NCBI RefSeq assembly: GCF_032362555.1 | Contig: NC_083531.1 | Span: forward strand, 1,054,001-1,118,000 | DNA from: Amyelois transitella | Taxonomy: Eukaryota; Arthropoda; Insecta; Lepidoptera; Pyralidae | Reading direction: 5' to 3' | DNA: 64,000 bases | Shown: piece after piece, positions 8,003-45,743 of the stretch | How the letters are laid out: each line of letters begins with the position of its first letter | Position numbering within the stretch: position 1 is the stretch's first letter | Notes under the pieces: model-generated | What the model saw: only the letters and a program-made list of their open reading frames with translations | Told to the model about the DNA's origin: nothing | The model's database searches: none | Translations under genes and position numbers: made by a program

Positions 8003-8240
8003 ATCTTGATATGCGGTGATACTCTCCCAACACTACTACCAATTTTGTTTTAATAAAATAATTATCAGAAATCCTTTTTTGGAATTGAAATTTTGCACAA
8101 TCACAAGTTTAGGCGTCGTACGGGCAACCAAATTAACCATTTCATAAGCTCTTTCGGGGGAAGACTTCAAATCTTGGTCGACCACCAAGACAGGTCTTGA
8201 ATCACTGTACAGATTTCGTTTTTTTTACACACTTTTGACA
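8003..8240 (+). other. Probable 5' UTR of the 757-aa zinc-finger gene
   Basis: The segment runs from the strong acceptor (poly-T, CAG ending at 8002) to the initiator ATG at 8241. It contains stops in all frames close to the start, as expected of a leader. Inference from splice signals only. Confidence 0.4.
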
Positions 8241-15801: not shown

Positions 15802-15956
15802 CTAGGTGGTAGTTATTTCGGCTGGCAAGTCCTTCATTGGCACAAGTTTTGGCGCGCTGTCACTTTGACAGGTGCAGAAGCAGTTCTTCTGCTTGGGCCC
15901 GTTCGGTAAAATCAGGATCTTCAAATTCATGTTGGTTTCTAAAGCGTGCATGATTT
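15802..15956 (-). CDS. Sericin-like gene exon 25: C-terminal tail with CFCTC motif
   Basis: 155 bp after acceptor TTTCAG, phase 1, ending TAG at 15802-15804. It encodes about 50 non-repetitive residues ending in the block NCFCTCQSDSAPKLVPMKDL and a few more. These three closely spaced cysteines are the only ones near the C terminus. Short C-terminal CxCxC-type motifs are known from moth sericin-like proteins and probably make disulphides. Phase agreement with exon 24 supports the junction. Confidence 0.75.
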
Positions 15957-24900: not shown

Positions 24901-27900
24901 CTTTCTGATTTAGACTGTGACTCTGAATGCTGTCTCTCACTCTCTGATTGAGCACCAGAAGCGCTTTCTGATTTAGACTGTGACTCTGAATGCTGTCTCT
25001 CACTCTCTGATTGAGCACCAGAAGCGCTTTCTGATTTAGACTGTGACTCTGAATGCTGTCTCTCACTCTCTGATTGAGCACCAGAAGCGCTTTCTGATTT
25101 AGACTGTGACTCTGAATGCTGTCTCTCACTCTCTGATTGAGCACCAGAAGCGCTTTCTGATTTAGACTGTGACTCTGAATGCTGTCTCTCACTCTCTGAT
25201 TGAGCACCAGAAGCGCTTTCTGATTTAGACTGTGACTCTGAATGCTGTTTCTCGCTCTCAGATTGAGCACTAGAAGCGCTTTCTGATGCAGACTGTGACT
25301 CTGAATGCTGTCTCTCACTCTCAGATTGGGCACTAGAAGCGCTTTCTGATTTAGACTGTGACTCTGAATGCTGTTTCTCGCTCTCTGATCGAGCACTAGA
25401 TTCACTTTTTGATGAAGATTTGGATTCTTCACTAGATTTAGATTTAGACTCTGTCTCTGAACGTTGTGTTTCTGTTTCAGTTTGTGCACTAGATTCACTT
25501 TTTGAGCGAGATTCAGCCTCAGAATGTGACTCTTCACTTGCTGATTTCTCTGATTCAGATCGTGCACTTGATTCAGATTTAGACCCAGAACGTTGTCTTT
25601 CGCTTTCAGACTGTGATCTAGATTCACTCTCAGATTTCGCAGCTGATTCTGATTCTGAAAGGCGCTTTTCTGTTTCCAATTTCTCTGATTCAGATTGTTC
25701 ATTAGATTCAGATTCTGATCTTGACGCACTTTCTGACTTGGACTCTGATCGTTGCCTTTCACTTTCTGATTTCGACTCAGACTGTGATTCAGTGGTTTGT
25801 GATTTCCCTGATTCGGTTTGAGCACTGGATTCAGATTGGGATAGTGTTTTTTCGCTTTCAGATTTCTCTGATACAGATTGTACGGATTCAGACCTGGTCT
25901 CTGATTCTGAGCGTTGTGTTTCACTTTCTGACTGTGCACTCGATTCACTTTCTGATTTAGATTCAGCTGCTGATTCAGATTGAGAACTAGAAGCGCTTTC
26001 TGATGTTGATTCAGCTGCTGATTTCTCTGATTCAGATTGGGAACTAGAAGCGCTTTCTGATTTAGACTCTGATTCTGAACGTCGCCTTTCACTTTCTGAC
26101 TGTGCACTAGCAGATTTCGATTCGGACTCAGAAGCACTCTCGGATTTTGATATTGTCTTTTCACTTTCAGATTTCTCTAATTCAGATTGTGCCCTAGATT
26201 CGGATCTGGACTGTGATTCTGATCGTTGTCTCTCAATTTCTGATTGTGTACTTGAAGCGGTTTGAGATTTTGATTCAGATTCTGAACGAGAAGCACTTTC
26301 AGAGTTAGATTCTGAACGAGAAGCACTTTCAGATTTAGATTCAGATTCTGAACGAGAAATACTTTCTGATTTAGATTCAGATTGTGAATTAGAAGCGCTT
26401 TCTGATTTTGATTGAGCTACTGATTTCTCTGATTCGGATTGTGAACTAGAAGCGCTTTCTGATTTTGATTCAGCTTCTGATTTCTCCGATTCAGATTGTG
26501 AACTAGAAGCGCTTTCTGATTTCACCGATTCAGATTGTGAACTAGAAGCGCTTTCTGATTTTGATTGAGCTTCTGATTTCTCCGATTCAGATTGTGAACT
26601 AGAAGCGCTTTCCGATTTTGATTCAGCTTCTGATTTCTCCGATTCAGATTGTGAACTAGAAGCGCTTTCTGATTTTGATTCAGATTCTGATTTCTCTGAT
26701 TCAGATTGTGAACTAGAAGCGCTTTCTGATTTTGATTCAGCTTCTGATTTCTCCGATTCAGATTGTAAACTAGAAGCGCTTTCTGATTTTGATTCAGCTT
26801 CTGATTTCTCCGATTCAGATTGTAAACTAGAAGCGCTTTCTGATTTTGATTCAGCTTCTGATTTCTCTGATTCAGATTGTGAACTAGAAGCGCTTTCTGA
26901 TTTTGATTCAGATTCTGATTTCTCCGATTCAGATTGCGAACTAGTAGCGCTTTCTGATTTTGATTGAGCTTCTGATTTCTCCGATTCAGATTGTGAACTA
27001 GAAGCGCTTTCTGATTTTGATTCAGCTTCTGATTTCTCTGATTCAGATTGTGAACTAGAAGCGCTTTCTGATTTTGATTCAGCTTCTGATTTCTCTGATT
27101 CAGATTGTGAACTAGAAGCGCTTTCTGATTTTGATTCAGCTTCTGATTTCTCTGATTCAGATTGTGAACTAGAAGCGCTTTCTGATTTTGATTCAGCTTC
27201 TGATTTCTCTGATTCAGATTGTGAACTAGAAGCGCTTTCTGATTTTGATTCAGCTTCTGATTTCTCTGATTCAGATTGTGAACTAGAAGCGCTTTCCGAT
27301 TTTGATTCAGCTTCTGATTTCTCTGATTCAGATTGTGAACTAGAAGCGCTTTCTGATTTTGATTCAGATTCTGATTTCTCCGATTCAGATTGCGAACTAG
27401 TAGCGCTTTCTGATTTTGATTCAGATTCTGATTTCTCCGATTCAGATTGCGAACTAGTAGCGCTTTCTGATTTTGATTCAGCTTCTGATTTCTCCGATTC
27501 AGATTGTGAACTAGAAGCGCTTTCTGATTTTGATTCAGATTCTGATTTCTCCGATTCAGATTGCGAACTAGTAGCGCTTTCTGATTTTGATTGAGCTTCT
27601 GATTTCTCCGATTCAGATTGTGAACTAGAAGCGCTTTCTGATTTTGATTCAGCTTCTGATTTCTCTGATTCAGATTGTGAACTAGAAGCGCTTTCTGATT
27701 TTGATTCAGCTTCTGATTTCTCCGATTCAGATTGTGAACTAGAAGCGCTTTCTGATTTTGATTCAGCTTCTGATTTCTCTGATTCAGATTGTGAACTAGA
27801 AGCGCTTTCTGATTTTGATTCAGCTTCTGATTTCTCTGATTCAGATTGTGAACTAGAAGCGCTTTCTGATTTTGATTGAGCTTCTGATTTCTCCGATTCA

Positions 27901-30900
27901 GATTGTGAACTAGAAGCGCTTTCTGATTTTGATTCAGCTTCTGATTTCTCCGATTCAGATTGTGAACTAGAAGCGCTTTCTGATTTTGATTCAGCTTCTG
28001 ATTTCTCTGATTCAGATTGTGAACTAGAAGCGCTTTCTGATTTTGATTGAGCTTCTGATTTCTCCGATTCAGATTGTGAACTAGAAGCGCTTTCTGATTT
28101 TGATTCAGCTTCTGATTTCTCTGATTCAGATTGTGAACTAGAAGCGCTTTCTGATTTTGATTCAGCTTCTGATTTCTCCGATTCAGATTGTGAACTAGAA
28201 GCGCTTTCAGATTCAGTTGATTCTGTTGTTGTAGTAGTTGGCGCTTCAGTAGTGGTTGTTGTTGTGGTAGTTGGCGCTGGTGTAGTTGTAGTGGTTGTAG
28301 TAGTAGGAGCTGGTGTAGTTGTTGTAGTGGTTGTAGGTTCGGGCGTAGTTGATGAGCCGAGCTTACTAGGTTTGTTCTGTTTGATGTACTCAATGGCTTT
28401 ACGTATATCTGAAATTTAAATTGGGATAATATAAATATTATATAAATATACCTGAGATTTTTTGCAAAAAAATTGGCAATCGTAATGTTATAATTCGACG
28501 TTTTACTAGAATTCTATTATGAAGAGGTAAAAATTGATTCATGAAAATTCTTAAACCGTTAAAAAGATAGTATCTGCGGGTGTTCTAGTCTATGTTTGTA
28601 CCACAGACAAAATCGTGTTGCGCCGCTTGTAATCCATAAAGTTCTATAAACTTATTAAATATTAAGAATTTAAGGCGTCTATTGGAATCTTGCCTGATAT
28701 GCCAATAATAGTGTCCAAATAAGTACCTTTCACTTTAAAACCAAAAGTTCGTTACAGCACTTCTATAAAGTAGATTCCCAGATAAGAGTTAAATCTATAC
28801 ATAAAATAAAACGGTAAAATATTTTGTCTGTACATTTAGTATTTTGACTGAAATTGATAGAGAATTTTATTTTTACTTTTTTTGTCTGTCTGTCTGTATC
28901 TGACTGTATGATCAAGATTCAACTTGAAATTTAAGCGGACGAAGTCGCGGGCAACAGCTAGTTAAACAATATAACGTCGTTATACGTAATATCGTCATTT
29001 TCGAAGGCACGGCAGAACTTTCTTTTCACATTTTTTTACTAGTTAACGCTGTTACAGAATCAATTACCCGCACCTTTAATTTTAACTAGAGGCCGCCCGC
29101 GACTTCGTCCGCATGGAAACCCTATCAATCCCGCGGGAACTCTGGGATAAAAAGTAGCCTATGTGTTATTCTGGGTCTTCAGCTACCTACATACCAAATT
29201 TCATGGTAATCGGTTCAGTAGTTTTTGCGTGAAAGAGTAACAAACATCCATACATCCATACAAACTTTCGCCTTTATAATAGTAGTAGGATATGCAAAGT
29301 TTAATTTCTTACCAGATTCTCCTGTAGCCTCTCGAAGTTTGGATAACGCATCCACGAAGTCTGAAATTAATGACGTTGTATTAACAATTCGTAAGAAATT
29401 CAAAATGGCCAATACCCAATGTAGGATCGTCGTTAAAGACTCAAGGAGTATTGCCACTCTGGGCTCCTCTTTAGTTAAGTTTTTTTAGTTAACAATTTAT
29501 ACAAAGAAATATGTATTTATGGATTACTTACCAGTTGTTTCTGTAAACTCCTCGCAAATTGTGATAACCTCTTCTAAATCTATAAATATAAAGCATCAAT
29601 TTAAGTCAAATGAAATTGCAAACGATGTTAAGCGTAACATTAAGACAATGAAGAAAATAAAATAGTATCACTATATAAACGATTTGTTATTAAAGTTCCG
29701 TGTGGTCCCCGGCACCAATTCAAAAAAGAATAGGACCACTCCATCTCTTTCCCATGGATGTCGTAAAAGGCGACTAAGGGATAGGCTTACAAACTTGGGA
29801 TTCTTTTTTAGGCGATGGGCTAGCAACCTGTCACTATTTGAATCTCAATTGTATCATTAAGCCAAATAGCTGAACTGTCATTATTTTAATCTAAATTCCA
29901 TGATTTAGCCATACAGTTGAACAGTTAATACAATCAGTCTTTTCAATACTGTTGACTCTATCTACTCCGCAAGGGATGTAGACGTAACTATATGTATGTA
30001 GGTATTTATACTCACAGAAACGCTTGCTGATAGTAATGAAAAGCTCGAAGAATCTAATGATATCTGTAAATATTTAAAGGTTATTTTTTAATTATGTGTT
30101 TACTAATTTATGCCCACAGGACACATATGGATTTTCTTAATTCTGCTCATTTCTCAAGAAATATCTTCCAGCAGATCCGAATTTTATGGAATAATAACGT
30201 TTATTATAACAGTAAATATAATCATTTCATTTATTATATTTGAGAATTAGCAATTTTATAAAATTATTGAGGTTACTATCTCGCAGATAGATAAAATTTC
30301 ATTAAATTTGGATGAAATTATCGTACTAGCAAGTGGAAATAATATACATATTTGATAAAAATCATAAAGCTTCAACAAGTTTACTTACCAATTCTGACAA
30401 TAGTATAGATGACCTCGATGGATTCGAAGAAAGCTGAAAATTCAATGAATAATTTAATACAATGTTTTATGCGTTATGAACTTAAAGAGACTATATGTAA
30501 TTAACTCATATATACATGTAATTAACTCAGATACACTCATGAAATTATTTGGAATCGATTACACAGATACAAACAAGTGTTCCTGTTTCAGAGCACCTAG
30601 GTCTTAGGGTCGAAAACTCGGCCAGGACATTAAGAAAAATTAACATTTTTCGATTAATCTGAGTGGAGGATACTTATTTCATTATCAATTGTTATCAGAT
30701 ACTAACTCAAAAATAGTGTTGTCGAATTTTCGAACTTCGTTTGAGGCAAGCTCATTCTATGTAAATTGTTTTCGTAAGTATATACTTATTTAATAAAAAA
30801 AAACACACTGTCTCTCTTTCTGTGTAAAACACGATTGTATTATAAATAATTATATGGTAATACTTACACTTATAAACTTGGGATTCTTCTTTTAGGCGGT

Positions 30901-33900
30901 GGGCTAGCAACCTGTCACTATTTGAATCTCAATTCTATCTTAAAGCCTAATAGCTGAACGTAGCCTATCAGTCTTTTCGAGACTATTGGCTCTGTCTACC
31001 CCGCAAGGAATATAGACGTGATTATATGTATGTATGTATGTAATACTTACACGTAGTTCGCGTCATTTGGTTGAATTTCAACGCAGCCGCTGCGAAGTTT
31101 GTAGAATTGGTGATACGAAGGATGGTCTCTATGAAAACTATGATCTCCACCTTGGTGTACTTGTAGACCGTCTCGAAAAACAGGAAAATGTCTGGAAATC
31201 AAAGTGAAGAAAATTATCAGGAGTCATTTGCAGACCTACAACACGTTAGTTTGTAAAATTAAGCGTTTACATTTGACCTTAAAATAGAAGTTGTTGAAGA
31301 AAATTGTGAGTTCCAAAATCTATTAACGCATAACTCTTGGAGTTTGAATGACATATTTATATTACGTACCTGTTATTTTAGTAACTTTGATGATAACGTC
31401 CCATGCTTTTTGAATTGCTGCAAGAGAAGAAAGTTATTACAATTTAATATTGATATCAATAATAAATCAAAATTTAAATTGATATCAATGGCGACACAAT
31501 AATAAGGAAAAGAACATAATCACTAAAATAATAATATGATAATAATATATAAATAAATAAAACCTTTATTTTTCTCTTTACAAAGGATTATTTTATTAGG
31601 CATTAGGTTTTTTTTATAACTAGGTTTTATACATTCTATTTCATTGCTTGGTATCAACAGACTTCACCTTTGGCTGGAGGCTAGGTGCTGTTATAGGTTG
31701 CTGAAGGAACATGTGCTACAGGTAGCTAGGCCCCACCCTTGGAATTACATAGCATTGATGGGCAGTCTATGTGTTGAATGAAGTGGACTAAATATACAGG
31801 TAGGTAAGTTATACTAAATACTTATGTATAGGTATGGGATGTATATATGCAAAGACAACTTACATTTAGTGCCCGTGTGTGAACACAGTTTCTTGAAGAA
31901 ATCGATTATATCCTCATGACCGGATTTAATTCGAATTTGGTCCAGAACATCTAGCATCGATGCTTCTGGAATGAAAACAAACAATCCAATGTTAATAAAT
32001 AAATGAAGTTAGTTTTTATACGCTCTACCTAGGTATATAAAAGCTAAAACAAAAAAATAGGTTTTAAGTCATTTAATTTAATTCATAAATTGTTCCGCTA
32101 ATTTGAAAAACATCGTCCACATAAACATATAAATAAAACAAATTTCTATTAAAAAATATATATGTTATTGATCGTAATTTATTAAGTTCATTTTACAATC
32201 CAAATTGAATATATCTGATTAATTTAAATAATTGTATCAATGATAAAATTTGACAAAGTGGAAAGTGATTTAAAAAATATTATCTGATGATAACCTAACG
32301 CCGAGTCTACATTGGTAAACTTACCCTTTCTAGTTGTTAATGACTTGATGATAGTGCTTGCGTCCTCAAGAACCCTGGTCTGGGTGATGTCTAACAAGGA
32401 GTTTAGGAAGAAAATCGCGTCACGCCTCCTGGTCACCTTGTTGATACGGGTGATGACGTTGACAATATCTGTAAAAATTACAAACATCATATTTTTTTTG
32501 TTAATAATTTATATTAGATATTTTACTAGAAGAGACACACTGTTCTTCAAAATCACTTCACTAGGCTGATGAATTGAGAAGACTCGGGGCGAGACTCTAT
32601 GACTTAGTAAAACATCACTTGCTTTTTTAACGCAGTTAACGCGGTTTGATTGGGTGAATAATTTTATCACACCGTAAAGATTTCCCCTATTACTATTACA
32701 TTACTATTACATTTAACTTGTTTATAGTCTTCTATTTTCTGTATTTTGTTAAATTGTCTGTAAGTATAACTTACTTAGTGCCGTGTGGTTCCTGGCACAA
32801 ATGAAAAAAGAATAGGACCACTCCATCTCTTTCCCATGGATGTCGTAATGGGCGACTAAAGAACAGGCTTATAAGCTTGGGATTCTTTAAAGCGATGGGC
32901 TAGCAATCTGTCACTATTTGAATCTCAACCAAACCAGCCAAACATCTGAACGTGGCCTGTCAGCCTTTCAAGATTGCTGGCTCTGTCTACCCCGGGATAT
33001 AGACGACAATTATATGAATGGATGGATGGAAACTTACTATCATCATCGAAGACGTTCTTGAAAACGTCTTGCACTTGTTCCAAGTTGACGCGTCCGGTGA
33101 TGCGGTATAAGTTCTGTACAATTACTCTTAAACCTGAAAGTGGAAAATGTGCAAATTATTTATTTACCTTTATTTCTTGTAAAATAATTTTTTTTAGAAC
33201 AATTATTTCTTATTATCCATCACATAATTATGCAATCAAAATTTTAAAATAACGATTAAAGACGGCTTTCCGATGTACAAAGTTAATTTAAAATTATAAA
33301 TAGGTGTACTTACTTGTTCGGTTGATTTCCTGAATCAATTCTTCCAAGGCATATTTCAGTTCTGTAAATCAAATAGTTTTTATAAGTAGGTATATTATGT
33401 AGCAATTGTCGAGTAATTAATAATTATGTTAAAATTTTTACAAAGGAAATGTAAAAAAAATATGAAAATGAATAATTCATGAAATCAGTTATGATAATTT
33501 GTACGTATTTTATGTATCTTGTGCCGTGTGGTTCCCGGCACCAATACAAAAAAGAATAAGACCACTCCATCTCCTTCCTCCGGATATCGTAAAAGGCGAC
33601 TAAGGGATAGGCTTACAAAATTGAGATTCTTCTTCTAGGCGTTGGGCTAGCAACTAGTCACTATTTGAATCTCAATTCTATCATAAAGCCAAATAGCCTG
33701 TCAGTCTTTTCAAGACTGTTGGCTCTGTCTACCTCACAAGGGATATAGACGTGACCATATGTATGTTTATGCATCAAAATACATACATTAAAAACAATAC
33801 ATAAAGTATTGTTTTTAATGTATGTATTTTGTAGTATGCATGTGAATTTCACCGCACCACCTACTTAAAGTTTTTCTGTTTGGTCAGCTGGTAGACGGGT

Positions 33901-36900
33901 AGAGAATGCCAAACGGAAATAAGTTCACCTTTTGTACATTTCATTTTGTGCAATAAAGTTTTGAATAAATAAATAAATAATGAATTTTTACAAAGGAAAT
34001 GTAAAAAAAATATGAAAATGAATAATTCATGAAATCAGTTATGATAATTTGTACGTATTTTATGTATCTTGTGCCGTGTGGTTCCCGGCACCAATACAAA
34101 AAAGAATAAGACCACTCCATCTCCTTCCTCCGGATATCGTAAAAGGCGACTAAGGGATAGGCTTACAAAATTGAGATTCTTCTTCTAGGCGTTGGGCTAG
34201 CAACTAGTCACTATTTGAATCTCAATTCTATCATAAAGCCAAATAGCCTGTCAGTCTTTTCAAGACTGTTGGCTCTGTCTACCTCACAAGGGATATAGAC
34301 GTGACCATATGTATGTTTATGCATCAAAATACATACATTAAAAACAATACATAAAGTATTGTTTTTAATGTATGTATTTTGTAGTATGCATGTGAATTTC
34401 ACCGCACCACCTACTTAAAGTTTTTCTGTTTGGTCAGCTGGTAGACGGGTAGAGAATGCCAAACGGAAATAAGTTCACCTTTTGTACATTTCATTTTGTG
34501 CAATAAAGTTTTGAATAAATAAATAAATAATGAAGTCAGAAGTCTTCTTTTATATATTTGCTTAGTCAACCTAATTAAATTAACAATAATCCTGTGCCGT
34601 GTGGTTCCCGGCACCAATACAAACCAGAAAAAGAATAGGACCAGTCCATCTCTTTCCCATGGATGTCATAAAAGGCGATTAAGGGATAGGCCAACTTGGG
34701 ATTCTTTTCTAGGCGATGGGCTAGCAACCTGTCACTACTTCAATCTCAATTCTATCATTAAGCCAGATAGCTGGACGTGGCCATTCGGTCTTTTTAAGAC
34801 TGTTGGCTCTGTCTACCCCGCAAGGGATATAGATGTGACCATGTGTGTGTGTGTATGAAGTCAGACTTACGAGTTTGACCCGTAGCCTTCTTGATCACAA
34901 CTATGCTCTTGGAGAAACTCTTGTTGTTCAGTATCTGACAGAAAGTGATTATAGCTTCGCCGATGTCTGAAAAACAAATAAATTTATAGTATAAATCATC
35001 AGCACTAAGTAATATCTGTATTGAAATACTAGACAAAGATTATAATATTATAAAATAATAATAATTCAAATTACCTCCAGTTCTGGTGACGGACATGAGT
35101 AGATCGAACGCTCCTTTCATATCTGGAAATGAAGAGAATGTAACAATTATACCAGAAGTTTTATTTGTCACCAAAATATTCCATTGTCATGGCGGCTTTC
35201 TGTGGAAACTGCCTTTATTTATGATTTAGACTCTAGATTGACATTCATACATACATACATCACGCCTCTTTCCCGGAGAGGTAGACAGAGACCACATCTT
35301 TCCATTTACCACGATCTCCGCACACTTCTTTCGCTTCATCCACATTCATAACTCTCTTCATGCAAGCTCGTCGGTTTCGGGTACTCTTGACCTGACCTTG
35401 CTAGAACCTCTATGATTTGATCAAGGTACGTTCTTCTAGGCCTTCCCACTCCAACATTTACATTCACACTTCTTTTGTATATTTGCTTTGTCAACCTTAT
35501 TAAATTAACAATATAAAAAAAAAAAACAGAAAAAAATTATTTATATGGCAAAACAACGTTTGCCGAGACAGCTAGTTATTAACAATAATATTATATAGTT
35601 TTATTTTCACTTACCAATTTCAGGGAGCAAGTTCTCAAACACCTTTGGGAACTCAGCCGGCCCCACGCCGCCCGTCAGCTTGCGGATTGTCAGCTTGATT
35701 CCTTGAAGACCTAAAATAATATCGTTTTGAATTCTAAATGTATGTATGTATGTTATATATTCAACTTGCTTTTATCCGAGCTTCGCCCGTGGTTTATACC
35801 CCACTTTTATTATCTCCTTTAGGGTTAAGTATGTACATACATACTCTTCTTATATTAATATCCTACTTATATTATAAATGCGAAAGTTTGTGAGTATGTC
35901 AGTATGGATGTTTGTTACTCTTTCACGCAAAGCTGCCGAACCGATTACGATTGGTATGTATGTAGCTGAAGACCCAGAATAACATATAGGCTACTTCATA
36001 TCCCGGAGTTCCCGCGGGATTGATACGGTTTCCATGCGGACGAAGTAGCGGGAGGCCTCTAGTATGTCATTATTCTCATATCGTAACACATTTGCCGCCA
36101 GTAAGCTGTTCAAATGTTGCCGTCCCTCGTGATTAGAGATCATTTCGATACCACACACGCAGAAAATAAGGTGGAGGTCAAATGTCAAATTTTGTAATTA
36201 AAAAACTAAATATTTTTTTTTGGTATTTTTTTTATATCTGTAAGAAAAAAAAAATTCGGTTCTTAATTTGCCGCCTTCTCAAATCCGCCGCCCTAGGCTT
36301 CAGCCTACTCAGCTTGCTGGTAAATCCGCCGCTGATCGTCACTAAATAGTACAAATCACAGTATTCTTACAAGATACGAGTATTTATGCTTGTATGTGTA
36401 CTACTTTATGCTTGTAGATATTTAAAACTGCATAGTTAATCGATTTCAATGCAGTTTTTTTAGTAGATAAAGTGATTGAAGAGGTAGGTTACCTATACGT
36501 ATAAATTATATGTATAAATGAAGTATAATTATGACCTAATGCTTACCTTTGGTGTGGGCGACATGTCTGAAATAATCGCAGATTTCATGGGAATCTGCGA
36601 AACAAAATTAGATAGATAAGAAAAAAAAATGTTGCTATTGGAAAAGAATTTTTTGAGAAGTTCTAATATTGGAATATTTTATTAAATTTATATGGTAAAA
36701 ATTAAAATTTTAAAGCACATTTAGAGGAGAAAATACTACCTATAATGTTAAATCTTAGAGACTTGTAATAATGGCACTTTTTAAAATCAATTTAAATTAA
36801 TTTCAAAATAGGTTGACATGAAATTGCAAATTAAAGATTAATAATTAAAACTAGTGATTGACTTTAAAATCAAGCGACTTACTCTTTTCCCCAGAAATCT

Positions 36901-39900
36901 TCTGCAATATCTCGAAGATTGCATCAAAATCGGCATGTCCAGTTAGGCGTTTCAGAACTTCGTATGCCTTGAAGACATCTGAAAATTGAGTCACAAAGTC
37001 ACTGTTATGAAATTCAATGCTAAAAAATATAATTTGACTCAAAGTGAAGGTTTAAAATGCAAGTGTAGGTAAATATAAAATTTTGGTACTATATGTTTAA
37101 ACCTTTGGACTAAGCAGATAAATTTACTTTTACACTGTTAGATAATGCGATTATTAATATTACTTATTTGTACCTTCAATTAAGTTTTCATAAATAAATA
37201 GTATAAGTAAGTAAAAATAGTTATGTATAAGAAGAAAAAAAGTTGAGTGACAATATGAAAAAAAAAACAAACTTACTGTTTTCATTGGTCATTTCTCTCA
37301 ATAATGCGACGATAACTCGAACATCTGAAAGTTAAAATAAATATGGTAATTTATGTTCGTGAAAGAGTATGCTGCTTGTTTTATTTTTTTTAAATTCGTA
37401 CCATAAAGAAAACAAAAATTTTAATAATAGTCTAGGTTTGTCTGTTGATACTGGCTACTAAAAAAAATTAATAAAAGAGTGACTTAAAAAAAATTGAATT
37501 GGCGCGCATTTTTAAAATCCCTCATAAAAGTTTTTGTGTAAAAAGTTTCAACGGCAGAAAATGTTACATGGCATCAAGTCCAACTGTTGTTATTTTTTTA
37601 AGAGCAATAAAATGTGAAAAAAAAACTTACTGGCTGTTCCCTCCAATTGAATAAAGAATGAAGTGACGAACTTCCATTCCCTGGAACCTCGGATTCTTCG
37701 TATAAACTCGTATATTTGGCTACGACCTGTCACAGAAAAGGTTTGTTATTTTTCTTATTATTTATAGTTAAGTACAAACATAATAATTAAATGCAATTAA
37801 CGTAAATTAAAGAGTAATTTAAATTAACTTAAACTTATTACCATTTACCACTCTGCCGCTTATACTAAAAAAAAAAACACATTTTCATATCTTGAAAGGA
37901 CAATATTCGAGGTCGATTGAAGAGGTGTATATAGTACCTAGTATATTTTTATTTATAACTAGCTGTCCTCGTGACTTCGTCCGCATAGAATAGTTATTTT
38001 GGGCATCATTGAAGCCCCCAATGATGAATAATTTTCCCCGTTCTTTTTCACATTTCCCATTATTTTTTCCCTCCTTATAATTGCAGCGTGATGTTAAATA
38101 GCCTAAAGCCTTCCTCGATAAATGGTCTATTCGAAACAAAAATATTTTTTCAATTCGAACCTGTTGTTCCTGAGATTAGCGTGTTCAAACAAACAAACAA
38201 ACTCTTCAGCTTTATAATATTAGTATAGATGATCATTGAATTTCAGAGACAAGCGTTTTGAAACAAATGAGGTGCCGTGTAGTTCTATTCCTGGTACATA
38301 CCCTTCTTTTTTATATGAAAATGTTCATCACCTGGCGTTAAGCCCGTTTAGAACCCCTCTGGAGAGGAGCCTGCGGTGATATGCCAATATGCCAACATGG
38401 CATGGATTGGGTGAGTCAGGTTTTTACAAGAAGCGACTCCCGTCTGACCTCCGCAACCTTTGCAGCGACATCTAACCCATGTTAGATCATGGTAACATAT
38501 CCACATAATTATCTTTACTTACTTTTAAGTCCTGCCGTTGTCCCGATGTATCGCAAAGCGGCATTTTCATCTGAAATAATTAATTACCATTAAAATGCGT
38601 GATTTCCCTTCCTAGGGGTCAAAATTTAAATAACCATTTTTAAGACTTTAATTTAGAATTGTTTTTTTTTATTATTAAATTACAGATATTAATAGTTTTA
38701 TTTTATTTTAATAAAGTATTTATTTTATATAAAAAAACCTATTAAAATTATAATATCCTTAAAATAAGTTCAACTGGCAGAGAATGGATTGTGGCATTAA
38801 GTGCACCTGTTGTACATTTTACGTGAATAAAGTTTAAATAAATGTTGGCTTTAAATCCAAACTTCCTATTAATCATACAATATACGAGATAATATAAGTC
38901 TAGTCTTTCTATGTACCTATATGTTAACTGTACAAGCGAATGTGTTGTCGCAACACAACTTAATCATTATTTTCATTTTATTTGACGTTTTACAAATGCG
39001 TTCGTTGCAAGACGATGACGCATAATTCCTATAACTTCTCTCTCTCATCCATATCTTTGTTTGCCGCAATCCGATTTTTCTTCTATTGTTTTTCCTATAA
39101 CTTCTATTGCCTATATAGTATTAACTATTCCTATTATTTAAATAAAGAAAACGTCCATGATAAAATAAAGGTACAATACGTGCGGGTTGAAAATATCTGT
39201 ATTATTTATAAATATTGCAGTCAAACTCATAAATTAGTTTTGGAATCAATTAAGTATCATTAATCAAATAAAGGTTTCAAAACCAAACATCCTTATTTTT
39301 CTGTTGTTTCGCGGAAAGCACACCTATGTATTTGCATAGACAAAAGACGTGCGCAGACGCAACAATATCACAATTTAATCAACTGGCGTTCATTTCGTGG
39401 TAACTCTTTGTTTCTTAAAAATAAACACATAAATTAAGTATATACATAGTTAAAGTTGTACTCTTATATGAACAAACATGTTAGAAGATGAAATATGACC
39501 ATTTTTTAATATTGGCTCAATTCGTTAATTAATTATTTAAACAATTGTTGAACAAGGTCAATTTACGGAGCATTTGTTTAAACAATTCATTTTTGTTGAA
39601 CAATGATGTAGGTTGGGGTATGTAGGATAATGTGTGTGCGTCAGTTGCTTATAGATTTTGCTATGTGCGTTATGTTTATAAGTTTTTATGTTTATTTTCT
39701 ACGTTGGGGTCAAAAACTTTTTTTTTTTTTATTTACCTTGTTAGTACCGGAGGGGTTCTGGACGTGATTTTATGTTAATGTTAGTTATTTTTAATTACGT
39801 TTCAAAGAGTATTTTCAGGCACCAATGTAACAGGGAGATGTTCTCAATAAAAAATGTTTGCTGAAGATAAAAAAAATACCTAATACTTATGACAATATTT

Positions 39901-42900
39901 TATGAGATTAATAACGTCTTAATATTATTTTGTGATTGAATGTTAAAAGGTTGTTTATTTATTTTAAATTTAATTTCCAATCTTCAAAATATTTTGTCAA
40001 CAACTTGTGTCACGTGAAAAAGTAAATTTTATTATTTGACGAATAGAAATTTAATAAACTTAATTTTGTATTTTAACTAATGCATACATTATGTTTGTTT
40101 TTTTTTTATTTTTAATTTGAGGTGATAATATTTTTAGCAATAATATACGTATATGTTTTGTTGCACAATAATCGGTCTAACAAAAAGAATCTTCGAAACA
40201 AAAATTGTATTTTTTTTGCCTCATAATGCCTGATTTTCCCAAATCCCACGTAAAACATAGTCCCGTTATTATTTCCTACGATTCAATTAATAATTGTAAT
40301 TTATTTCAATATAGGTTTTAAAAATACACCACCATTCTGAAAATACCTTCTTAAACATACTTTATTTATTTTGCAAAAAAATTCACACCCAAATGTATTT
40401 AATTTATTTTAAAGAATACAGAGAACTAGAAAAATAGAGCAATGAAAAATCTCCACAGATAAAAAAAAACATTTGAAATGACATTCGGGCAATAGTACAG
40501 TCAACCGCATATCAAGTAACCCTGCATGAACTCTATGACACGGTAATATAGAGCCGAGTTTGCAGTGAATTTTAGACTTCGACTGTAGATATGCCTGATG
40601 GAAAAAAAAAATTCTTAACTTACCATGAAGACCGGTGAGCTGGTAAAGAAGTTCGGCGCTCTGTTTATGCGCGTTGTGTCCTGGTAAAAACAAGGTATGA
40701 TTATTAAATAATAGGTGTATAGCTGTTGTCCGCGGCTCCACCCACGCCTGTCGCTAACCTGTGGAAACTAAAATTATCTCTTGTGGCGTTTCGACTTTGT
40801 CAATCAAAAGAAAGAACAAATCAAAAAAAGAACTCTTTCCCCGTTTGTTTTTTGCATAAACACATCCTGTGGGATACGACCCACATCTGTTTCTACTATT
40901 TCTTTTTTATCTTATTATGTTGTATTCTGTTATGTGTATAATAAATAAAATAAATAAAAAAATAAAAAAAAATCATATTTGCGAAGACCTACTGGTCCAT
41001 GCCGTGTGGTTCCTGATACCAATTAAAAAAAAAAGTACCACTCTACCCCGTTCCCATGGATGTCGTAAAACGGATAGGCTTATAAACTTGAGATTCTTCT
41101 TTAAGGCTAGCAACCTGTCTGTCCAACTATTTGGATCTCAATTCTATTATTAAGCCAAAAAACTGAACGTGGCCTATCAATTTTTTCAAGACTGTTCGCT
41201 CTGTGTACCCCGCAAGGGAAGGATATCATAATATCGTCCGACCTTCCTAACCTTTTCAGCGGAATTTAATCCAAATTTTTAACCTTTGGGTAGGTGTACT
41301 ACACAACCAATTGTTTGAATGTGCAGATTTTCTCACGAAATTTTCATTATTTTTAATCTGGCACTTAAGTACTACTTCCTACACTCTTATATACATACTT
41401 CTGTAAGGTTATCAATATTTTAATAACTAACCTCTAAATCCAAAGAGGTTTCGCAAAATGTCTGATATAACATCGACGCCGGTGTCTGAAAAAAAAAATA
41501 TTGTTTTAATTTTCGAACTCTTGGTGACAAAATTATGCCTAGAAAGTACTTAAGTGTACATTATTTCACACACAAGAAACCCACTCTTAGACATAATTGG
41601 ATTTTTACCTTGGCCCATTTAAAATGGGCAGATTAATAATTGCAACCAACATCTTTCTACAAATTAATTGACCTGCTATATATAAAAGAGGTCACTGACT
41701 GACATAATATGACGTCGGGTCTTCCCCTAAGTTCGTCGGAGTTTATTGGTCAGGGGTTTTGGCCCTCTTCAATGACTAATTTACGCTACCTTTAGGTACG
41801 ACTGTAGACTGAGTTCTACATTCATTCATGTTTTTCAATGTAGACAATGTCCACGATTTAGATTCAAGAGATCTATATTTGTAAATTGACGTCCGATAAA
41901 AATGCTGCAGTGTAGTTTGTTCCGCCGCTTCTTCTACACATGCGCTTTGAAAGCGGCAGTAGTAATAATTAGATTTAAGTGATGTGACGTCAATAAGTGA
42001 TATCTTGTATCCAATATTGAAAATGCTGCAGTGCAGTTTGTTACCGCTTCTTCTGCATTGACGCCTTGGAAGCGGCAGTAAGCATAGTTTTAAGTACCTA
42101 ATTTATTTGACGTCAACAAATGTTGTTAAACCATACGTTTTGACAATTATTAAGCGATATGAAGTATCCTATAATAATGAATAAAAATTTGGAATTTTAA
42201 TTTGAAAACTATTCTATTCTATTCTGCAGGCAGGTCGATGGAGTGGTCGTGGCTGCCTCGGTTTTCACAATTACTTGGGAGTTCTAATAAGGCGGCGGCG
42301 TCGTCACTGCTCGACGACGTCTGCCGCAAGGCAGCGAGGGGAGGGTTTGATCTGGCGGTCTGAAGGGCTGACATAATAGCGCACAATCCAAACCTATTAT
42401 ATGGTCAGGGGTGCAAAAGGGAGGAGTTCCCAAAATTCCGGAATAAAAGTTATAAATAAATAAATACCGTGTGGTTCCCGGCACCAATACAAAAAAGAAT
42501 AGGACCACTCCATGTCTTTCCCATGGATGTAGTAAAAGGCGACTAAGGGATAGGCTTACAAACTTGGGATTCTTTTTTAGGCGATGGGCTAGCAACCTGT
42601 CGCTATTTGAATCTCAATTTTATCATTAAGCCAAATAGCTGAACGTGGCCGTTCAGTCTTTTCAAGACTGTTGGCTCTGTCTACCCCGCAAGGGATATAG
42701 ACGAGACGATATGTATGTATGTTATAAATAAATATGATACCAGTACTTACTGACAATTTCTGAATCAACTTTGGTCTCCTTGTTCCAAGACTCTTTAGCC
42801 GCATCAGCCGCTTCATCGATACTCTTGTCTATGCCTTCAGGGTGATATTCCACACCATGGGAAAAATCTGAACTATCAGATTCAGTGAAATGTGATTCGG

Positions 42901-45743
42901 ATTTTGATTGGCTCGATTCTGCATGTGATTGACTGGAACTTTCCGATTGACTTTCTGATTGGCTTTGCGAAGAAGAACTTTCAGATGAAGAACTGAATTC
43001 GGAGTTCTGAGACGAACTTTCAGATTCGAACTGTGAACCAGATTTAGTTACACTCTCCGATTCCGATGAACTACTGGCTGATTCGCTTTCAGATCTGAAA
43101 CTCGATGTTTCATCATTAATATTGAGCAGCGACGGTAATTCTGTGGCTTCTGGGTGTTTGTTGGGAAAAGACGGTAGCTCAAGTCTTGGTGGGCCGAGTG
43201 GGTGGTGTCCAAAACCTGGTGGGCCTGAAGGATGGTGACCGAAGCCTGGTGAGTGGTGTCCAAAGTTCGGTGGGCCTGGCGGGTGGTGGCCAAAACCTGG
43301 GGGTCCGGGTGGTGGCCCAAAAGCTGGTGGGTGTCCAAAACCTTCTTCGTGATGGTGTCCTGATGGTGGCAGACCAAAACCGTGGTCTTTAACTTTTCCC
43401 CCTAAGCCTGGAGGTGTTCCGAAGTGGTGGGGCCCGTTGCCATGGTGTCTTACGTCTTCATGGCGGCCTGATGGAAGAAAAGAAAAACGTATGTGTAAGG
43501 AAATCGGTGATAAAAAGATAAGATGAGATATTTCGATGGCATTCGCGTTCAGTTGTCTGAGTAGGTGGAAGTTTCCTTACAATGTTTTACCCTTCCCACA
43601 GTTGAAGCTTAATATAGGTACCTTTACCTCAGGGGAAGATACAATTTTAAAGTTCACCAGGAACAATATAAAATATCTTTATCTTTAGACCCTTAGCCGC
43701 CTTCTATCATGAGTCTCTCATTTTTATTCATCTTTCAAAAATCACCAATTCTAATCCACCTCTCTGGAGTGAACCCATTGAGTGGGTAAGTCACATACAT
43801 AAAATCATGCCACTTTCCCGGAGGGGTAGGCAGAGACTACATCTTTTCACTTGCCACGATCTCTGCATACTTCCTTCGCTTCATCCACATTCATAACTCT
43901 CTCCATGCAAGCTCGGCGGTTTCGGGTACTCTTGACCTGACCCTTTACCAGGACGTCCTTAATTAACGTAAGGTAAGTCACGTTTTACTGAAACGATTCC
44001 CGTCTAACTAAGAGGGGTACCTAACTAATCTAGCATGTAAGTATCATGGTTGAAAATTCAGTTGCTTGACGGTGTAAATTTCTTCACTGTGATTTCCCTC
44101 ACCTCTCCGCTATCAGGTTACTTATTTCTTAATGGCTTCTACATACCCTGCTTTCATTTATTTGTCTCTCTCATCTTTACAATTCCATTCCCCTGTTGCA
44201 CCATCAGTTTCGCTTGTAGACCTTAATTCCGATTTTCTACAATTTTTTTTATTGATTTACTTTCACGAACCATTCTTTTTTATGATAACTACCTTTATTT
44301 TGCTGGCTTTTAAGTTGGCGGACGACATTCACTTTGTGAGGCGCTCCTAGAAACATTAAAACCAAATGTAGCCACTCCCACGCGTGGGCAAAGGCTTTCT
44401 TACCAACGTACATACAATTGCAAAGAAGTATTAAACCATTATGGTGGCGTGGTATTTCGTTTCGTGGTGCCGTGTGGTTCCCGGCACCAATACAAAAAAG
44501 AATAGGACCACTCCATCTCTTTCCCATGGATGTCGTAAACGGCGACTAAGGGATAGGCTTACAAACTTGGGATTCTTTTTTAGGCGATGGGCTAGCAACC
44601 TGTCACTATTTGAATCTCAATTCTATCACTAAGCCAAATAGCTTAACGTGGCCATTCAGTCTTTTCAAGACTGTTGGCTCTGTCTACCCCGCAAGGGATA
44701 TAGACGTGACCATATGTATGTATGTATGTAATTATATGTATGGTATTTCAGTAAGCTTGTTTCGTGTGGGACGAATCGAAACAAAAAAGGTGTTAAAAAT
44801 ATATACATCACAATATGGTCATTATTCTACTCTAAAAGTGCTCTGTCAGGAAACCCACTGTCAATTAAGTAATCGTTACTTTTATGGATGTTATGTAATC
44901 AAATGGAAAAAGAAGACTAGATAATATATAAAAACTAATTAACCGATATATAAAAAAAAATAACGTGAAGAATAAAAAATATGACACCTCCGACCAGATC
45001 AAGGATAATAAGTATTTTATTATTAAAAAGGTTTTCTGTACTTACGATTGGGTTGTGGGTCTGCATTTGTCGTGTAGACCTGACATAATAAAAAAAATTA
45101 TATACATATTTTTTTTTACTTTTAAAACACTTTGGTTTCGAAAGATTCGAACCACACTCCAAAAATATATAAGAAGTACTTTAACCCTTTAGTCGCCTTG
45201 GACATTTAAAGATGATCTTATTGCTACCACATTGACTATTCTAAGTTAGTCATTTCAAGATTAGATTTTTAATGACTCAATTATGCGCTTAAAACAGTAT
45301 TATGTCAAAAACACTGTAACGAAGTATTTTTTGTTAAACAGAAGAAAATTAGGAAGTACTGAAAGTACCTACTGTTCATACTCGCAAAGTACTGTTCCCG
45401 GGGAATTTTGTATAAACTTATTGACGGCCCCTGTGGCGCAGCGGTTGTGCGCTTGTCTGTGTCACCGGAGGTCCCGGGTTCAAATCCCCCATGATGAGAA
45501 ACGAACTTTCTCTGATTGGCCTGGGTCTTGGATGTTTATCTATATAAGTATTTATTATAAAATATAGTATCGTTGAGTTAGTATCTCGTTACACAAGTTA
45601 CTTCGAGGCTAACTCAAATCTGTGTAATTTGTCCCGTATATATTTATTTATTTAATTATTACGCGAATTAAAAGTTGTTTAGTATTCTATAATGTACTTA
45701 CGTATAGCGCCCAAACTAATATCTTAAGCACAAACAATTTCAT
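15802..45743 (-). CDS. Giant sericin-like secreted silk protein, 25 coding exons, about 4,888 aa
   Basis: Exons in transcript order: 45702-45743, 45046-45079, 42751-43467, 41432-41485, 40624-40680, 38523-38570, 37631-37726, 37277-37324, 36883-36978, 36547-36594, 35615-35710, 35075-35122, 34871-34966, 33314-33361, 33038-33133, 32325-32468, 31864-31965, 31370-31417, 31051-31191, 30389-30433, 30016-30063, 29532-29579, 29313-29360, 16145-28408, 15802-15956. Every junction has GT/AG ends. After a phase-0 first intron all introns are phase 1, and the total of 14,667 bp is divisible by 3. The protein is secreted: signal peptide; His/Gly/Pro-rich then Ser-rich region; 16-residue helical modules; Thr-rich linker; about 4,000 residues of Ser-rich repeats; CFCTC tail. 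Seen: structure and composition. Known: moth sericins are Ser-rich repetitive silk-gland glues, and some have many short exons plus one long one. Inferred: silk coating or adhesive. A mucin-like secreted protein is the alternative. Confidence 0.82.
16045..16140 (+). repeat. Dispersed repeat family F inside the last sericin-like intron
   Basis: The segment (CATCCTCACC ... GAGGAGCCCGGGATG ... GACTCAGGTTTTTACACGA) matches diverged copies at about 38335-38490 (plus) and 56500-56675 (minus). It fills about half of the 188-bp intron and reaches into the exon-24 splice donor. Confidence 0.65.
16145..28408 (-). CDS. Sericin-like gene exon 24: 12,264-bp repetitive exon
   Basis: It starts after TTTCAG with a last 16-residue module (DIRKAIEYIKQNKPS), then a Thr/Pro linker and about 4,000 Ser-rich residues. 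It ends at donor GTAAGC (16139-16144) after KLAIQQGKRG. Length is divisible by 3 and the frame is open throughout. Reading on past the donor adds only seven residues before a stop at 16122-16124; that is intron read-through, not the true end. Part of the frame could appear to begin at 26525, but that codon is GTG inside the repeat. Blocks in order: 19-residue, mixed, 21-residue, 6-residue, Pro/Gln-rich, then long Arg/Glu/Ala/Ser hexads. Confidence 0.82.
16210..22400 (-). repeat. Long hexad-based Ser/Arg/Glu/Ala repeat array
   Basis: About 2,060 residues in register of six: SRSEAE, SRREAE, SKSSSE, ARSEAE, SRREAA, SSSTSE. The hexads combine into 18- and 24-residue higher-order units (such as SRSEAE-SRREAE-SKSSSE). 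Acidic and basic residues are nearly balanced. The antisense strand also stays open for long stretches, which is a by-product of the repeat. Confidence 0.85.
22470..23760 (-). repeat. Pro/Gln-rich island with 30-bp repeat QSQPLQPVPG
   Basis: About 430 residues dominated by Q, P, L, V, S and I interrupt the Ser-rich chain. The N-terminal part is built on QPVVSQPIQPQQP-like units. The C-terminal part has about nine copies of QSQPLQPVPG. It is almost free of charge, unlike its neighbours, so it probably forms an extended proline-rich segment. Confidence 0.82.
23828..24085 (-). repeat. 18-bp coding tandem repeat SRAQSE, 14 copies
   Basis: Fourteen hexapeptides (one with V for A) lie directly N-terminal to the Pro/Gln-rich island. 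They differ only at silent third positions (GCA/GCG, AGA/AGC-type changes). Confidence 0.85.
24835..25400 (-). repeat. 63-bp coding tandem repeat (21 residues), 9 copies
   Basis: The unit is about SESERQHSESQSKSESASGA plus Q. Five central copies are virtually identical; outer ones vary (EK/VR for ER, SAQ/SSQ for GAQ). It is embedded in more degenerate Ser/Glu/Lys/Arg sequence from 24.1 to 26.4 kb. Confidence 0.8.
26390..28212 (-). repeat. 57-bp coding tandem repeat (19 residues), about 31 copies
   Basis: The unit encodes ESASSSQSESEKSEAESKS with few changes (Q for E, T for S, L for S). Copies are highly similar at the DNA level, which points to recent homogenisation. Ser is about half of the residues, often every second position. 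Confidence 0.85.
28213..28345 (-). other. Thr/Pro-rich mucin-like linker
   Basis: Encodes three runs of six or seven threonines separated by PAP or EAP, ending TTTTESTE. Dense Thr with Pro is the usual setting for O-glycosylation. It separates the helical modules from the Ser-rich repeats. Confidence 0.7.
29092..29295 (+). repeat. Dispersed repeat family D
   Basis: Begins GAGGCCGCCCGCGACTTCG, contains CAATCCCGCGGGAACTC and the block TGCGTGAAAGAGTAACAAAC, and ends near CTTTCGCCTTTATAATAG. Related copies lie at 35860-36065 (minus) and 62508-62670 (plus). It ends about 20 bp from the donor of exon 23. Confidence 0.65.
29698..30003 (+). repeat. Dispersed repeat family A, near full length
   Basis: Runs from CCGTGTGGTCCCCGGCACC through ATGGATGTCGTAAAAGGCG, GATGGGCTAGCAACCTGTC and CCGCAAGGGATGTAGACG to a GTAT-rich tail. 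Antisense to the sericin-like gene, in the intron after exon 21, with the tail 12 bp from its donor. Confidence 0.75.
30868..31041 (+). repeat. Dispersed repeat family A, 5'-truncated
   Basis: Starts at CTTATAAACTTGGGATTC and ends in (GTAT)n. The tail is within 10 bp of the exon-19 donor (31050/31051). Antisense to the gene. Confidence 0.7.
32777..33030 (+). repeat. Dispersed repeat family A
   Basis: GTGCCGTGTGGTTCCTGGC to a GGAT-rich tail. It lies antisense in the intron after exon 15, 7 bp from that exon's donor. Confidence 0.72.
33433..34534. repeat. Exact 550-bp tandem duplication in the intron between exons 13 and 14
   Basis: 33433-33982 is repeated at 33983-34532 with no difference that I could find. 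Each copy holds a family-A element (from 33521 and 34071), a hairpin, and a LINE-like 3' end with GGTCAGCTGGTAGACGGG and AATAAAG, ending in (AAAT)n. Copies meet at the AAAT/TGAA tail. Confidence 0.85.
33775..33831. repeat. Perfect hairpin, 26-bp arms, 5-bp loop
   Basis: Arms 33775-33800 and 33806-33831 are exact reverse complements, built on ATACATACATTAAAAACAAT. An identical hairpin lies at 34325-34381 in the second 550-bp copy. Confidence 0.8.
34594..34857 (+). repeat. Dispersed repeat family A
   Basis: GTGCCGTGTGGTTCCCGGC to a GTGTGTGT tail. It lies antisense in the intron after exon 13, 13 bp from its donor (34870/34871). Confidence 0.72.
35245..35470 (+). repeat. Dispersed repeat family E
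   Basis: ATACATCACGCCTCTTTCCC, GGTAGACAGAGACCACATC and GCTTCATCCACATTCATAAC, then GTTTCGGGTACTCTTGACC. Shared with 43790-43970; fragments occur near 5765 and 63475-63545. Confidence 0.65.
35860..36065 (-). repeat. Dispersed repeat family D, minus orientation
   Basis: The plus strand reads GCGAAAGTTTGTGAG ... GTTACTCTTTCACGC ... CCCGCGGGATTG ... GCGGACGAAGTAGCGGGAGG, the reverse of the copy at 29.1 kb. Confidence 0.65.
37968..38229 (+). repeat. Dispersed repeat family C
   Basis: ACTAGCTGTCCTCGTGACTT, GGGCATCATTGAAGCC, AGCCTTCCTCGATAAATGG and AAACAAACTCTTCAGC, ending in TATAATATTAGTATAG. Other copies: 53247-53517 and 62178-62440 (plus), 46010-46272 and parts of 55465-55680, 55915-55985 and 61111-61212 (minus). 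Confidence 0.7.
41001..41220 (+). repeat. Dispersed repeat family A, diverged
   Basis: GCCGTGTGGTTCCTGATACC, ATGGATGTCGTAAAACG and GTACCCCGCAAGGGA. Lies antisense in the intron after exon 4, about 200 bp from the donor. Confidence 0.65.
41899..42190 (+). repeat. Internal duplication of a dispersed element
   Basis: Two diverged copies about 118 bp apart start AAAATGCTGCAGTG and contain GCGGCAGTA and a GACGTCAA block. The following GACAATTATTAAGCGATATG resembles 5.9-6.0 kb. Confidence 0.55.
42467..42722 (+). repeat. Dispersed repeat family A
   Basis: CCGTGTGGTTCCCGGCACC to (GTAT)n. Antisense, in the intron after exon 3, 28 bp from its donor (42750/42751). Confidence 0.72.
42751..43467 (-). 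CDS. Sericin-like gene exon 3: His/Gly/Pro-rich then Ser-rich
   Basis: 717 bp, phase 1 at both ends, open throughout. The first half is a tandem-like series around GFGHHPPGPP and variants (GFGHP, NFGHH, GFGHHPSGPP). The middle is a short unique region (LELPSFPNKHPEATELPSLL). The second half is Ser/Glu/Gln-rich (SESESASSSSESES, SSQSQSESQSESSSQS). It ends in an acidic, probably helical stretch (IDKSIDEAADAAKESWNKE) leading into the 16-residue modules. The His clusters could bind metal ions; this is inference. Confidence 0.8.
43790..43970 (+). repeat. Dispersed repeat family E
   Basis: Same order of blocks as at 35.25-35.47 kb (GGTAGGCAGAGACTACATC, GCTTCATCCACATTCATAAC, GTTTCGGGTACTCTTGACC), in the intron between exons 2 and 3. 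Confidence 0.65.
44467..44732 (+). repeat. Dispersed repeat family A, well preserved
   Basis: GTGCCGTGTGGTTCCCGGC to GACGTGACCATATGTATG and (GTAT)n. One of the cleanest copies; antisense in the intron between exons 2 and 3. Confidence 0.75.
45046..45079 (-). CDS. Sericin-like gene exon 2
   Basis: 34 bp between acceptor TGTCAG and donor GTAAGTAC. It completes the signal peptide and opens the mature chain (DPQPN...). It changes the phase from 0 to 1, which all later introns of the gene keep. Confidence 0.75.
45424..45655 (+). mobile_element. tRNA-derived SINE (family B), best copy
   Basis: A-box TGGCGCAGCGG and B-box GGTTCAAATCC are spaced as in a pol III promoter. They are followed by the body (GGCCTGGGTCTTGGATG) and the tail (CGAGGCTAACTC, TTTGTCCCGTATA, then T/A repeats). 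Lies antisense in intron 1 of the sericin-like gene. Confidence 0.85.
45702..45743 (-). CDS. Sericin-like gene exon 1: start codon and signal peptide core
   Basis: Encodes MKLFVLKILVWALY (14 residues), then the donor GTAAGTAC. With exon 2 (VYTTNADPQPN) it makes a typical cleavable signal peptide: Lys near the N terminus, a hydrophobic core, and probable cleavage after TNA. A 14-residue first coding exon is also a familiar layout in lepidopteran silk genes. A TATA box and an initiator-like sequence lie just upstream. Confidence 0.8.

Follow-up and report, generated by a model that had tools for sequence, protein, structure and literature searches.

A probable helical-repeat domain encoded by symmetric mini-exons in a silk mucin-1 gene of the moth Amyelois transitella

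Silk mucin-1 (Muc1) of moths, known from Ephestia, Galleria, Plodia and Yponomeuta and represented in Bombyx by XM_021350004.2, is the closest known system to the gene analysed here, and we compare the two by its published description. According to the accessible parts of the cited articles, to which all statements taken from them are limited, Yponomeuta Muc1 has 32 exons and shows whole-exon duplication (PMC9684489), and mucin-1 of Ephestia kuehniella (Ek-Muc1) carries the motif NCFCTC near its C-terminus (PMC9745057). Sericin 1 (Ser1) and the P150-type sericins likewise belong to the serine-rich proteins of the silk coat and carry a cysteine motif close to the C-terminus, but Ser1 has a two-cysteine CXCX motif and Ek-P150 reads KCYCSC (PMC9745057). 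Moreover, the repeats of sericins sit in large exons, whereas mucin 1 duplicates exons instead (PMC9684489). We analysed a 64,000-nucleotide (nt) stretch of the Amyelois transitella genome (assembly GCF_032362555.1, contig NC_083531.1, positions 1,054,001 to 1,118,000 of the forward strand), here called the window, which contains a probable Muc1 gene with an array of short repeated modules. This array had been noticed earlier in a reading of the letters alone, termed the sequence-only reading below. Our preferred interpretation, to which we assign a probability of roughly 0.55, is that 31 helix-turn modules, spanning Muc1 residues 265-763, make up a conserved domain of alpha-helical repeats, and that this domain is the structured portion of a silk-coat protein, acting in docking or assembly.

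Phase-1 exons were sought on the minus strand by a splice-site search and then assembled. This yielded a 25-exon minus-strand gene running from window position 45743 to 15802, with a frame that is open from the ATG at 45743 to the stop codon ending at 15802 and encodes 4,888 amino acids. The open 25-exon frame, together with a homologue in Manduca sexta described below, rules out chance open frames in introns. The C-terminus of the protein reads ...ILPNGPKQKNCFCTCQSDSAPKLVPMKDLPAEITTT, with NCFCTC at residues 4862-4867, encoded by the last exon (exon 25, 15802-15956, minus strand), whose open frame covers the C-terminal domain and the stop codon. The three-cysteine motif of Muc1 (NCFCTC, or CXCXC) is thus present, as it is in the Manduca homologue; the two-cysteine CXCX motif of sericin 1 is absent, and three cysteines (CFCTC) are found instead. 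The many exons and whole-exon duplications of Muc1 have their counterpart in 25 exons, 20 of which are symmetric and repeat-bearing, and the serine-rich low-complexity repeats expected of Muc1 are found as well. Because NCFCTC lies in the last exon we prefer silk mucin-1 to sericin, and the sequence-only reading, which had called the gene sericin-like, is corrected in this respect: there is little doubt that the gene is Muc1. Bombyx sericin 4 was weighed as possibly the same gene. The genome searched comprises 327,366,114 bases on 33 contigs; a single further match to the C-terminus, a weak one, lies on another contig (L011, G000:C13:10101211-10101312; 35% identity over 34 residues, E 0.16), which could be a relative of sericin 1 or P150, or chance.

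The array occupies exons 4-23 and their introns (29313-41485, minus strand), as given by the splice-site assembly and, for exons 12-23, by homology to Manduca. All 20 exons are bounded by AG...GT and all are phase 1 at both ends, as the sequence-only reading had noted. Their length is an exact multiple of 48 nt (48, 96 or 144) in 15 of the 20. The first two, exon 4 (41432-41485, 54 nt) and exon 5 (40624-40680, 57 nt), encode single units of 18 and 19 residues, within which the helix appears by eye to be shifted. Nine exons of 48 nt contain one unit each, namely exons 6 (38523-38570), 8 (37277-37324), 10 (36547-36594), 12 (35075-35122), 14 (33314-33361), 18 (31370-31417), 21 (30016-30063), 22 (29532-29579) and 23 (29313-29360), and exon 20 (30389-30433, 45 nt) encodes one 15-residue unit that is 4 residues shorter than its Manduca counterpart. 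Two units each are found in the 96-nt exons 7 (37631-37726), 9 (36883-36978), 11 (35615-35710), 13 (34871-34966) and 15 (33038-33133) and in the 102-nt exon 17 (31864-31965), and three units each in exon 16 (32325-32468, 144 nt) and exon 19 (31051-31191, 141 nt). All of these were called by exon assembly, exons 11 and 21 also by the splice-site search, and those from exon 12 on, where coverage by the Manduca protein starts, by alignment to it. In total, residues 265-763 comprise 31 modules, 30 in exons 4-23 and one that opens exon 24. The sequence-only reading was therefore right about some 30 diverged copies in exons 4-23. Its one module per exon describes 12 of the 20 exons but fails for the six with two and the two with three, and its unit of 16 residues applies to 25 of the 31 modules, the other six measuring 14, 15, 15, 18, 18 and 19 residues.

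The periodicity of the array is well above chance. Hydropathy is autocorrelated at lag 16 with r 0.39 (z 8.5 in comparison to 2000 shuffles of the residues), and further peaks appear at lags 32 (z 6.3), 48 (z 5.3) and 64 (z 4.4). In the 25 units of exactly 16 residues the hydrophobic moment is maximal at 100-110 degrees (z 7.1), which is the value of an alpha-helix. Within these exact units a hydrophobic residue is found at position 2 in 21, at position 5 in 24, at position 6 in 19, at position 9 in 24 and at position 12 in 22 of the 25, with many I, L and F at positions 2, 5, 9 and 12. Position 1 is D, N, S or T in 17 units. Position 13 is T in 14 of the 25, compared to 23 of 375 other positions, and position 14 is G or N in 13, compared to 25 of 375. 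Residue preferences at helix caps are the basis for reading these ends, and the pattern is that of a short helix which begins with an N-cap and finishes in a turn, followed by a short link. The repeated short amphipathic helices deduced earlier from hydrophobic residues at 2, 5, 9 and 12 are thus borne out, and the shuffles exclude the lack of periodicity that had been named as refuting them. While the array makes up 10% of the protein length, it contains 190 of its 416 VILMFWY residues; in the Ser/Glu blocks such residues amount to 2%. A scan with a hidden Markov model (HMM) of the module placed called exons in its first 13 rows; the HMM had been trained on most of them, and the scan is not counted.

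The modules have diverged far from one another. Among the 25 exact units the mean identity is 13% and the maximum 44%, and none of the 32 copies listed in eight direct-repeat families (at least 40 nt, region 28400-41600) overlaps any of the 20 array exons. Recent exon duplication is therefore unsupported. Duplication of larger blocks was also rejected: the best self-match scores 53 for 32 residues, compared to 48.0 in a column-shuffled null (standard deviation 6.8), and 54 for 48 residues, compared to 54.0 (standard deviation 8.2). The 15-residue units E19a (in exon 19, 31051-31191) and E20 (30389-30433) each coincide with the opening helix of a 48-residue segment, and similar units come after both; their self-match does not rise above the shuffled null.

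Protein searches recovered one relative. A 499-residue query found none among 7,999 scored candidates, since full-length relatives fall outside the length range of that search. The second search, in which the 8,000 best-sharing candidates were scored, recovered the Manduca sexta hypothetical protein O3G_MSEX013794 (P0001) of 2,605 amino acids, and a third one, with the Manduca protein as the query, returned only itself among 2,915 scored. Residues 1-321 of the Manduca protein correspond to the modules of exons 12-24 (modules 12-31) with their order kept: 155 of 322 positions are identical (48%), 231 are positive and 5 are gaps. The C-termini of the two proteins share 44 of 78 residues. The Manduca protein differs in that it starts inside the array, being probably a truncated model, and in that the repeats of its middle are unrelated: this part, in which Ser, Thr and Glu abound, contains none of the 30 commonest 6-mers of window exon 24. 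For 17 of the 20 Manduca modules the colinear window module is the best match. Orthologous pairs of equal length (16 of 20) are on average 44% identical, compared to the 13% between the exact window modules, and the mean cross-species score is 40.0 at lag 0 but at most 5.0 at all other lags from -10 to 10. Because module order and 48% identity are kept in Manduca while the Ser/Thr-rich middle is unrelated, the array is old and conserved. By the same comparison, at least the modules of exons 12-24 predate the split between the Amyelois and Manduca lineages, and selection has maintained them during a turnover of the low-complexity repeats.

None of the domain libraries searched accounts for the array. 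Neither the window array nor Manduca P0001 matches any Pfam family above its cut-off, no NCBIfam family matches the Manduca protein at E 1, and phmmer finds no match among PDB sequences at E 10. With a two-sequence profile, 12 PDB sequences scored E 10 or lower, the top one being the designed PPR protein 5i9h (E 0.0032), without a single significant stretch, and a profile of 15 aligned 48-residue segments gave eight PDB matches (best E 0.15). A Pfam match to Spumavirus Gag (E 0.00098) is under the cut-off of that family and was judged to be chance. Searches of viral and prokaryote contigs gave 251 and 494 pattern matches, none of which was confirmed, and no Rfam family reaches its gathering score anywhere in the window. 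TPR, PPR, HEAT and armadillo repeats, whose structural features are well established, share with the array tandem short helices and a regular hydrophobic spacing. The array is unlike them in having 16 residues per helix and no Pfam, phmmer PDB or fold match, and the Pfam profiles of these families stay below their cut-offs. We also looked for a second array locus in the genome. With modules E6-E24 as the query, 16 candidates were scored, and every one of the 14 matches with E no higher than 10 lies in this locus (window 28362-38571), although diverged copies of 48-nt exons could escape such an exon-by-exon search, in which scoring is restricted to the best candidates.

Structure prediction agrees with one helix per module. 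AlphaFold2, run on Manduca residues 1-321 without an alignment, gives 20 helices for 20 modules at a predicted local distance difference test score (pLDDT) of 46.4 and a predicted template modelling score (pTM) of 0.27. In this first model the helices start at module position 2 in 10 of 20 cases and end at position 12 or 13 in 15 of 20; 16 of the 20 lie within one module at a tolerance of one residue, and all 20 do so after shifting by one or two residues. A second model, of Manduca residues 144-321 with two window exons as extra rows, has a pLDDT of 52.5 and a pTM of 0.31 and shows 11 helices for 11 modules, as assigned by reading. Foldseek with this model returned 26 rows (best E 2.5) consisting of designed alpha-repeat proteins, the Nup358 N-terminus and unrelated helical proteins, which we count as no evidence.

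Whether modules are grouped into larger repeats is less clear. From exon 6 to exon 15 the lengths alternate between 48 and 96 nt, and exon 16 follows with 144 nt, which suggests a unit of three modules. When set in threes, 15 segments align with few gaps, and by eye the second helix shows D...F...L..IT and the third an EA-like pair. In permutation tests with two scorings, a period of three is found in the 20 Manduca modules (p 0.002 and 0.0096) and in both species combined (p 0.016 and 0.032), but not in the window array alone (p 0.54 and 0.49) or in the upstream window modules compared to Manduca (p 0.91); earlier subsets gave p 0.42 (18 window modules) and 0.084 (9 Manduca modules). Thus, exon lengths and the Manduca modules point to a three-helix repeat of 48 residues while the window modules do not, and since five periods were tried in two species we take this as a hint only. 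For an alternation of two helix types, as in TPR or PPR proteins, a signal (p 0.018-0.02) is confined to one subset of 18 window modules, compared to p 0.22-0.43 in the whole window array and 0.37-0.58 in Manduca. A period of four (p about 0.04 in the window array, 0.72 and 0.52 in Manduca) is attributed to chance among the periods tried.

Taken separately, the parts of our preferred interpretation differ in strength: a helical repeat domain is very probably present, and its role in docking or assembly is a tentative proposal at somewhat less than even odds. In the mechanism that we envisage, symmetric phase-1 mini-exons would have been duplicated repeatedly long ago; between some modules introns would have disappeared or would never have existed. 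The array would fold as a compact, solenoid-like helical repeat, possibly with three helices per 48 residues, and would contact itself or another silk protein specifically, so fastening the long hydrophilic chains in the coat of the fibre; disulphide links may be formed by the three-cysteine unit at the C-terminus. A more specific version, which we regard as doubtful, is that moth Muc1 holds an unnamed, conserved helical-repeat fold arranged as a solenoid, in which about ten three-helix repeats of 48 residues are built from symmetric exons of 48, 96 and 144 nt with one to three helices each; this would be a specific docking domain, the other 90% of the protein being low-complexity and free to change. 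Several observations weigh against the preferred interpretation. The homologue is a single one, a predicted protein that starts within the array, and three of its 20 modules miss their colinear best match, namely E16c (rank 2) and, next to the 4-residue length difference, E19c (rank 8) and E20 (rank 14). Genes named Muc1 in caddisfly and Neomicropteryx have 2 and 4 exons (PMC9432349, PMC11906653, accessible parts), so that the exon array is not general to this name. Finally, both models are of low confidence and no fold match falls below E 2.5; their helices are credible and may be arranged as a solenoid, a bundle or an extended chain, which leaves a compact fold as a proposal.

The modules may instead be separate amphipathic helices on one chain, which would lack compact packing and bind a lipid, wax, air-water or fibre surface in the manner of apolipoprotein-type repeats. 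The strong amphipathicity of the units (the moment z of 7.1), the T-G/N turn that delimits each of them and the lack of confident packing in the models would all fit such a chain. However, in 21-24 of the 25 exact units positions 2, 5, 9 and 12 are hydrophobic, I, L and F being frequent there, and module identity and order are kept between species, which suggests specific packing rather than a generic amphipathic surface. We rate this alternative as unlikely. The helices might also associate between chains, as a coiled-coil or rod, for which coiled-coil silks provide the model. Indeed, the 2-5-9-12 spacing is 3-4-3, like the a and d positions of heptads, but T13 and G/N14 form a turn that closes each helix after about 12 residues, so that no long continuous heptad run arises, and we consider such an assembly improbable.

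Other alternatives concern the exons rather than the fold. Since all 20 array exons are phase 1-1, any of them could be dropped without a frameshift, and Bombyx sericin 1 is known to yield several mRNAs by alternative splicing (PMC8329953, accessible part). The array might thus mainly be a source of isoforms with varying helix number, or be largely skipped in silk-gland mRNA. Yet all 20 modules covered by the Manduca protein, which may itself be a gene prediction, are retained in order at 48% identity, which argues that they are normally translated, and we rate this alternative as unlikely. Neutral exon proliferation without function, as in the changing repeats of sericins, would be in line with the freely varying repeat number elsewhere in silk-coat genes (PMC9684489, PMC9745057, accessible parts), but it is largely refuted by the one-to-one orthology of modules at 48% identity with Manduca, compared to a mean of 13% between window modules, and is very improbable. 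The alpha-helical repeat domain stays our preferred interpretation. It agrees with the sequence-only reading in that a conserved, probably folded region of about 500 residues lies amid low-complexity repeats, that no named domain matches in Pfam, NCBIfam or PDB sequence searches, and that serial exon duplication built the array, whole-exon duplication in Muc1 being already in print (PMC9684489, accessible part).

The gene family and its exon duplication are known, as far as the accessible text of the published work extends, while the helical array as a conserved domain without a library match is undescribed in the literature that could be searched. The words helix, helical, helices and solenoid are absent from the main text of PMC9684489, whose supplementary figures S4 and S11 may show the module, and the words helix and amphipathic are not found in the accessible part of PMC9745057. 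More generally, no description of a Muc1 helical repeat domain was met in the literature searched, which mostly excludes subscription journals.

From its hydrophobic N-terminus the protein runs through a Pro/Gly/His segment and then an acidic Ser segment to the helical array, and from there through a Thr/Pro linker and the repeats to the small three-cysteine domain. Exon 1 (45702-45743, minus strand), called from its ATG, GT donor and open frame, encodes the start codon and the hydrophobic N-terminus, by eye a putative signal peptide; it is followed by exon 2 (45046-45079, minus strand; AG/GT borders, open frame). Exon 3 (42751-43467, minus strand), recognized by its open frame and composition, encodes the Pro/Gly/His-rich and then the acidic Ser-rich segment. 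Over residues 27-125 Pro, Gly and His amount to 24, 23 and 18%, in which this segment differs from the rest of the protein; it is possibly, as a guess, a metal- or pH-sensitive element. Exon 24 (16145-28408, minus strand; 12,264 nt), again called by open frame and composition, contains the 31st module, the linker (49 residues, 61% Thr) and Ser/Glu-rich and Gln/Pro-rich repeats. These Ser-rich and Gln/Pro-rich charged repeats extend over about 4,000 residues between the linker and the C-terminal domain, and Ser makes up 42% of residues 813-2277 and 33% of residues 2735-4815.

Other features of the window include interspersed copies resembling short interspersed nuclear elements in the array introns (families D1, D2 and D4-D6; 29695-30008, 30876-31042, 32777-32955, 34600-34859 and 41025-41249). 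In the intron between exons 13 and 14 (33433-34282) there are two direct copies 550 base pairs (bp) apart, identical at 300 of 300 aligned bases, an interspersed element included. Positions 57312-61032 hold 40 tandem copies of a 93-bp unit (100% match), whose minus-strand translation matches the start of the RGS domain PF00615 (positions 2-38 of the 117 in the profile, E 3.9e-17); these copies are either a true expansion that carries part of an exon or an artefact of the assembly. Next to them are about 18 copies of a 37-bp unit (56685-57343, 89% match), which has words in common with the 93-bp unit. Neighbouring open frames encode C2H2 zinc fingers (2796-5465, minus strand, and 8235-10514, plus strand; PF00096 E 1.6e-17, PF12756 E 4.5e-10).

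Silk-coat proteins are usually compared via their fast-evolving repeats, which are difficult to align across species. A conserved and probably folded domain of about 500 residues would help to find Muc1 across moths and would be a concrete candidate for an anchor of the coat. Moreover, it would show clearly how helices and exons can coincide in a repeat protein.

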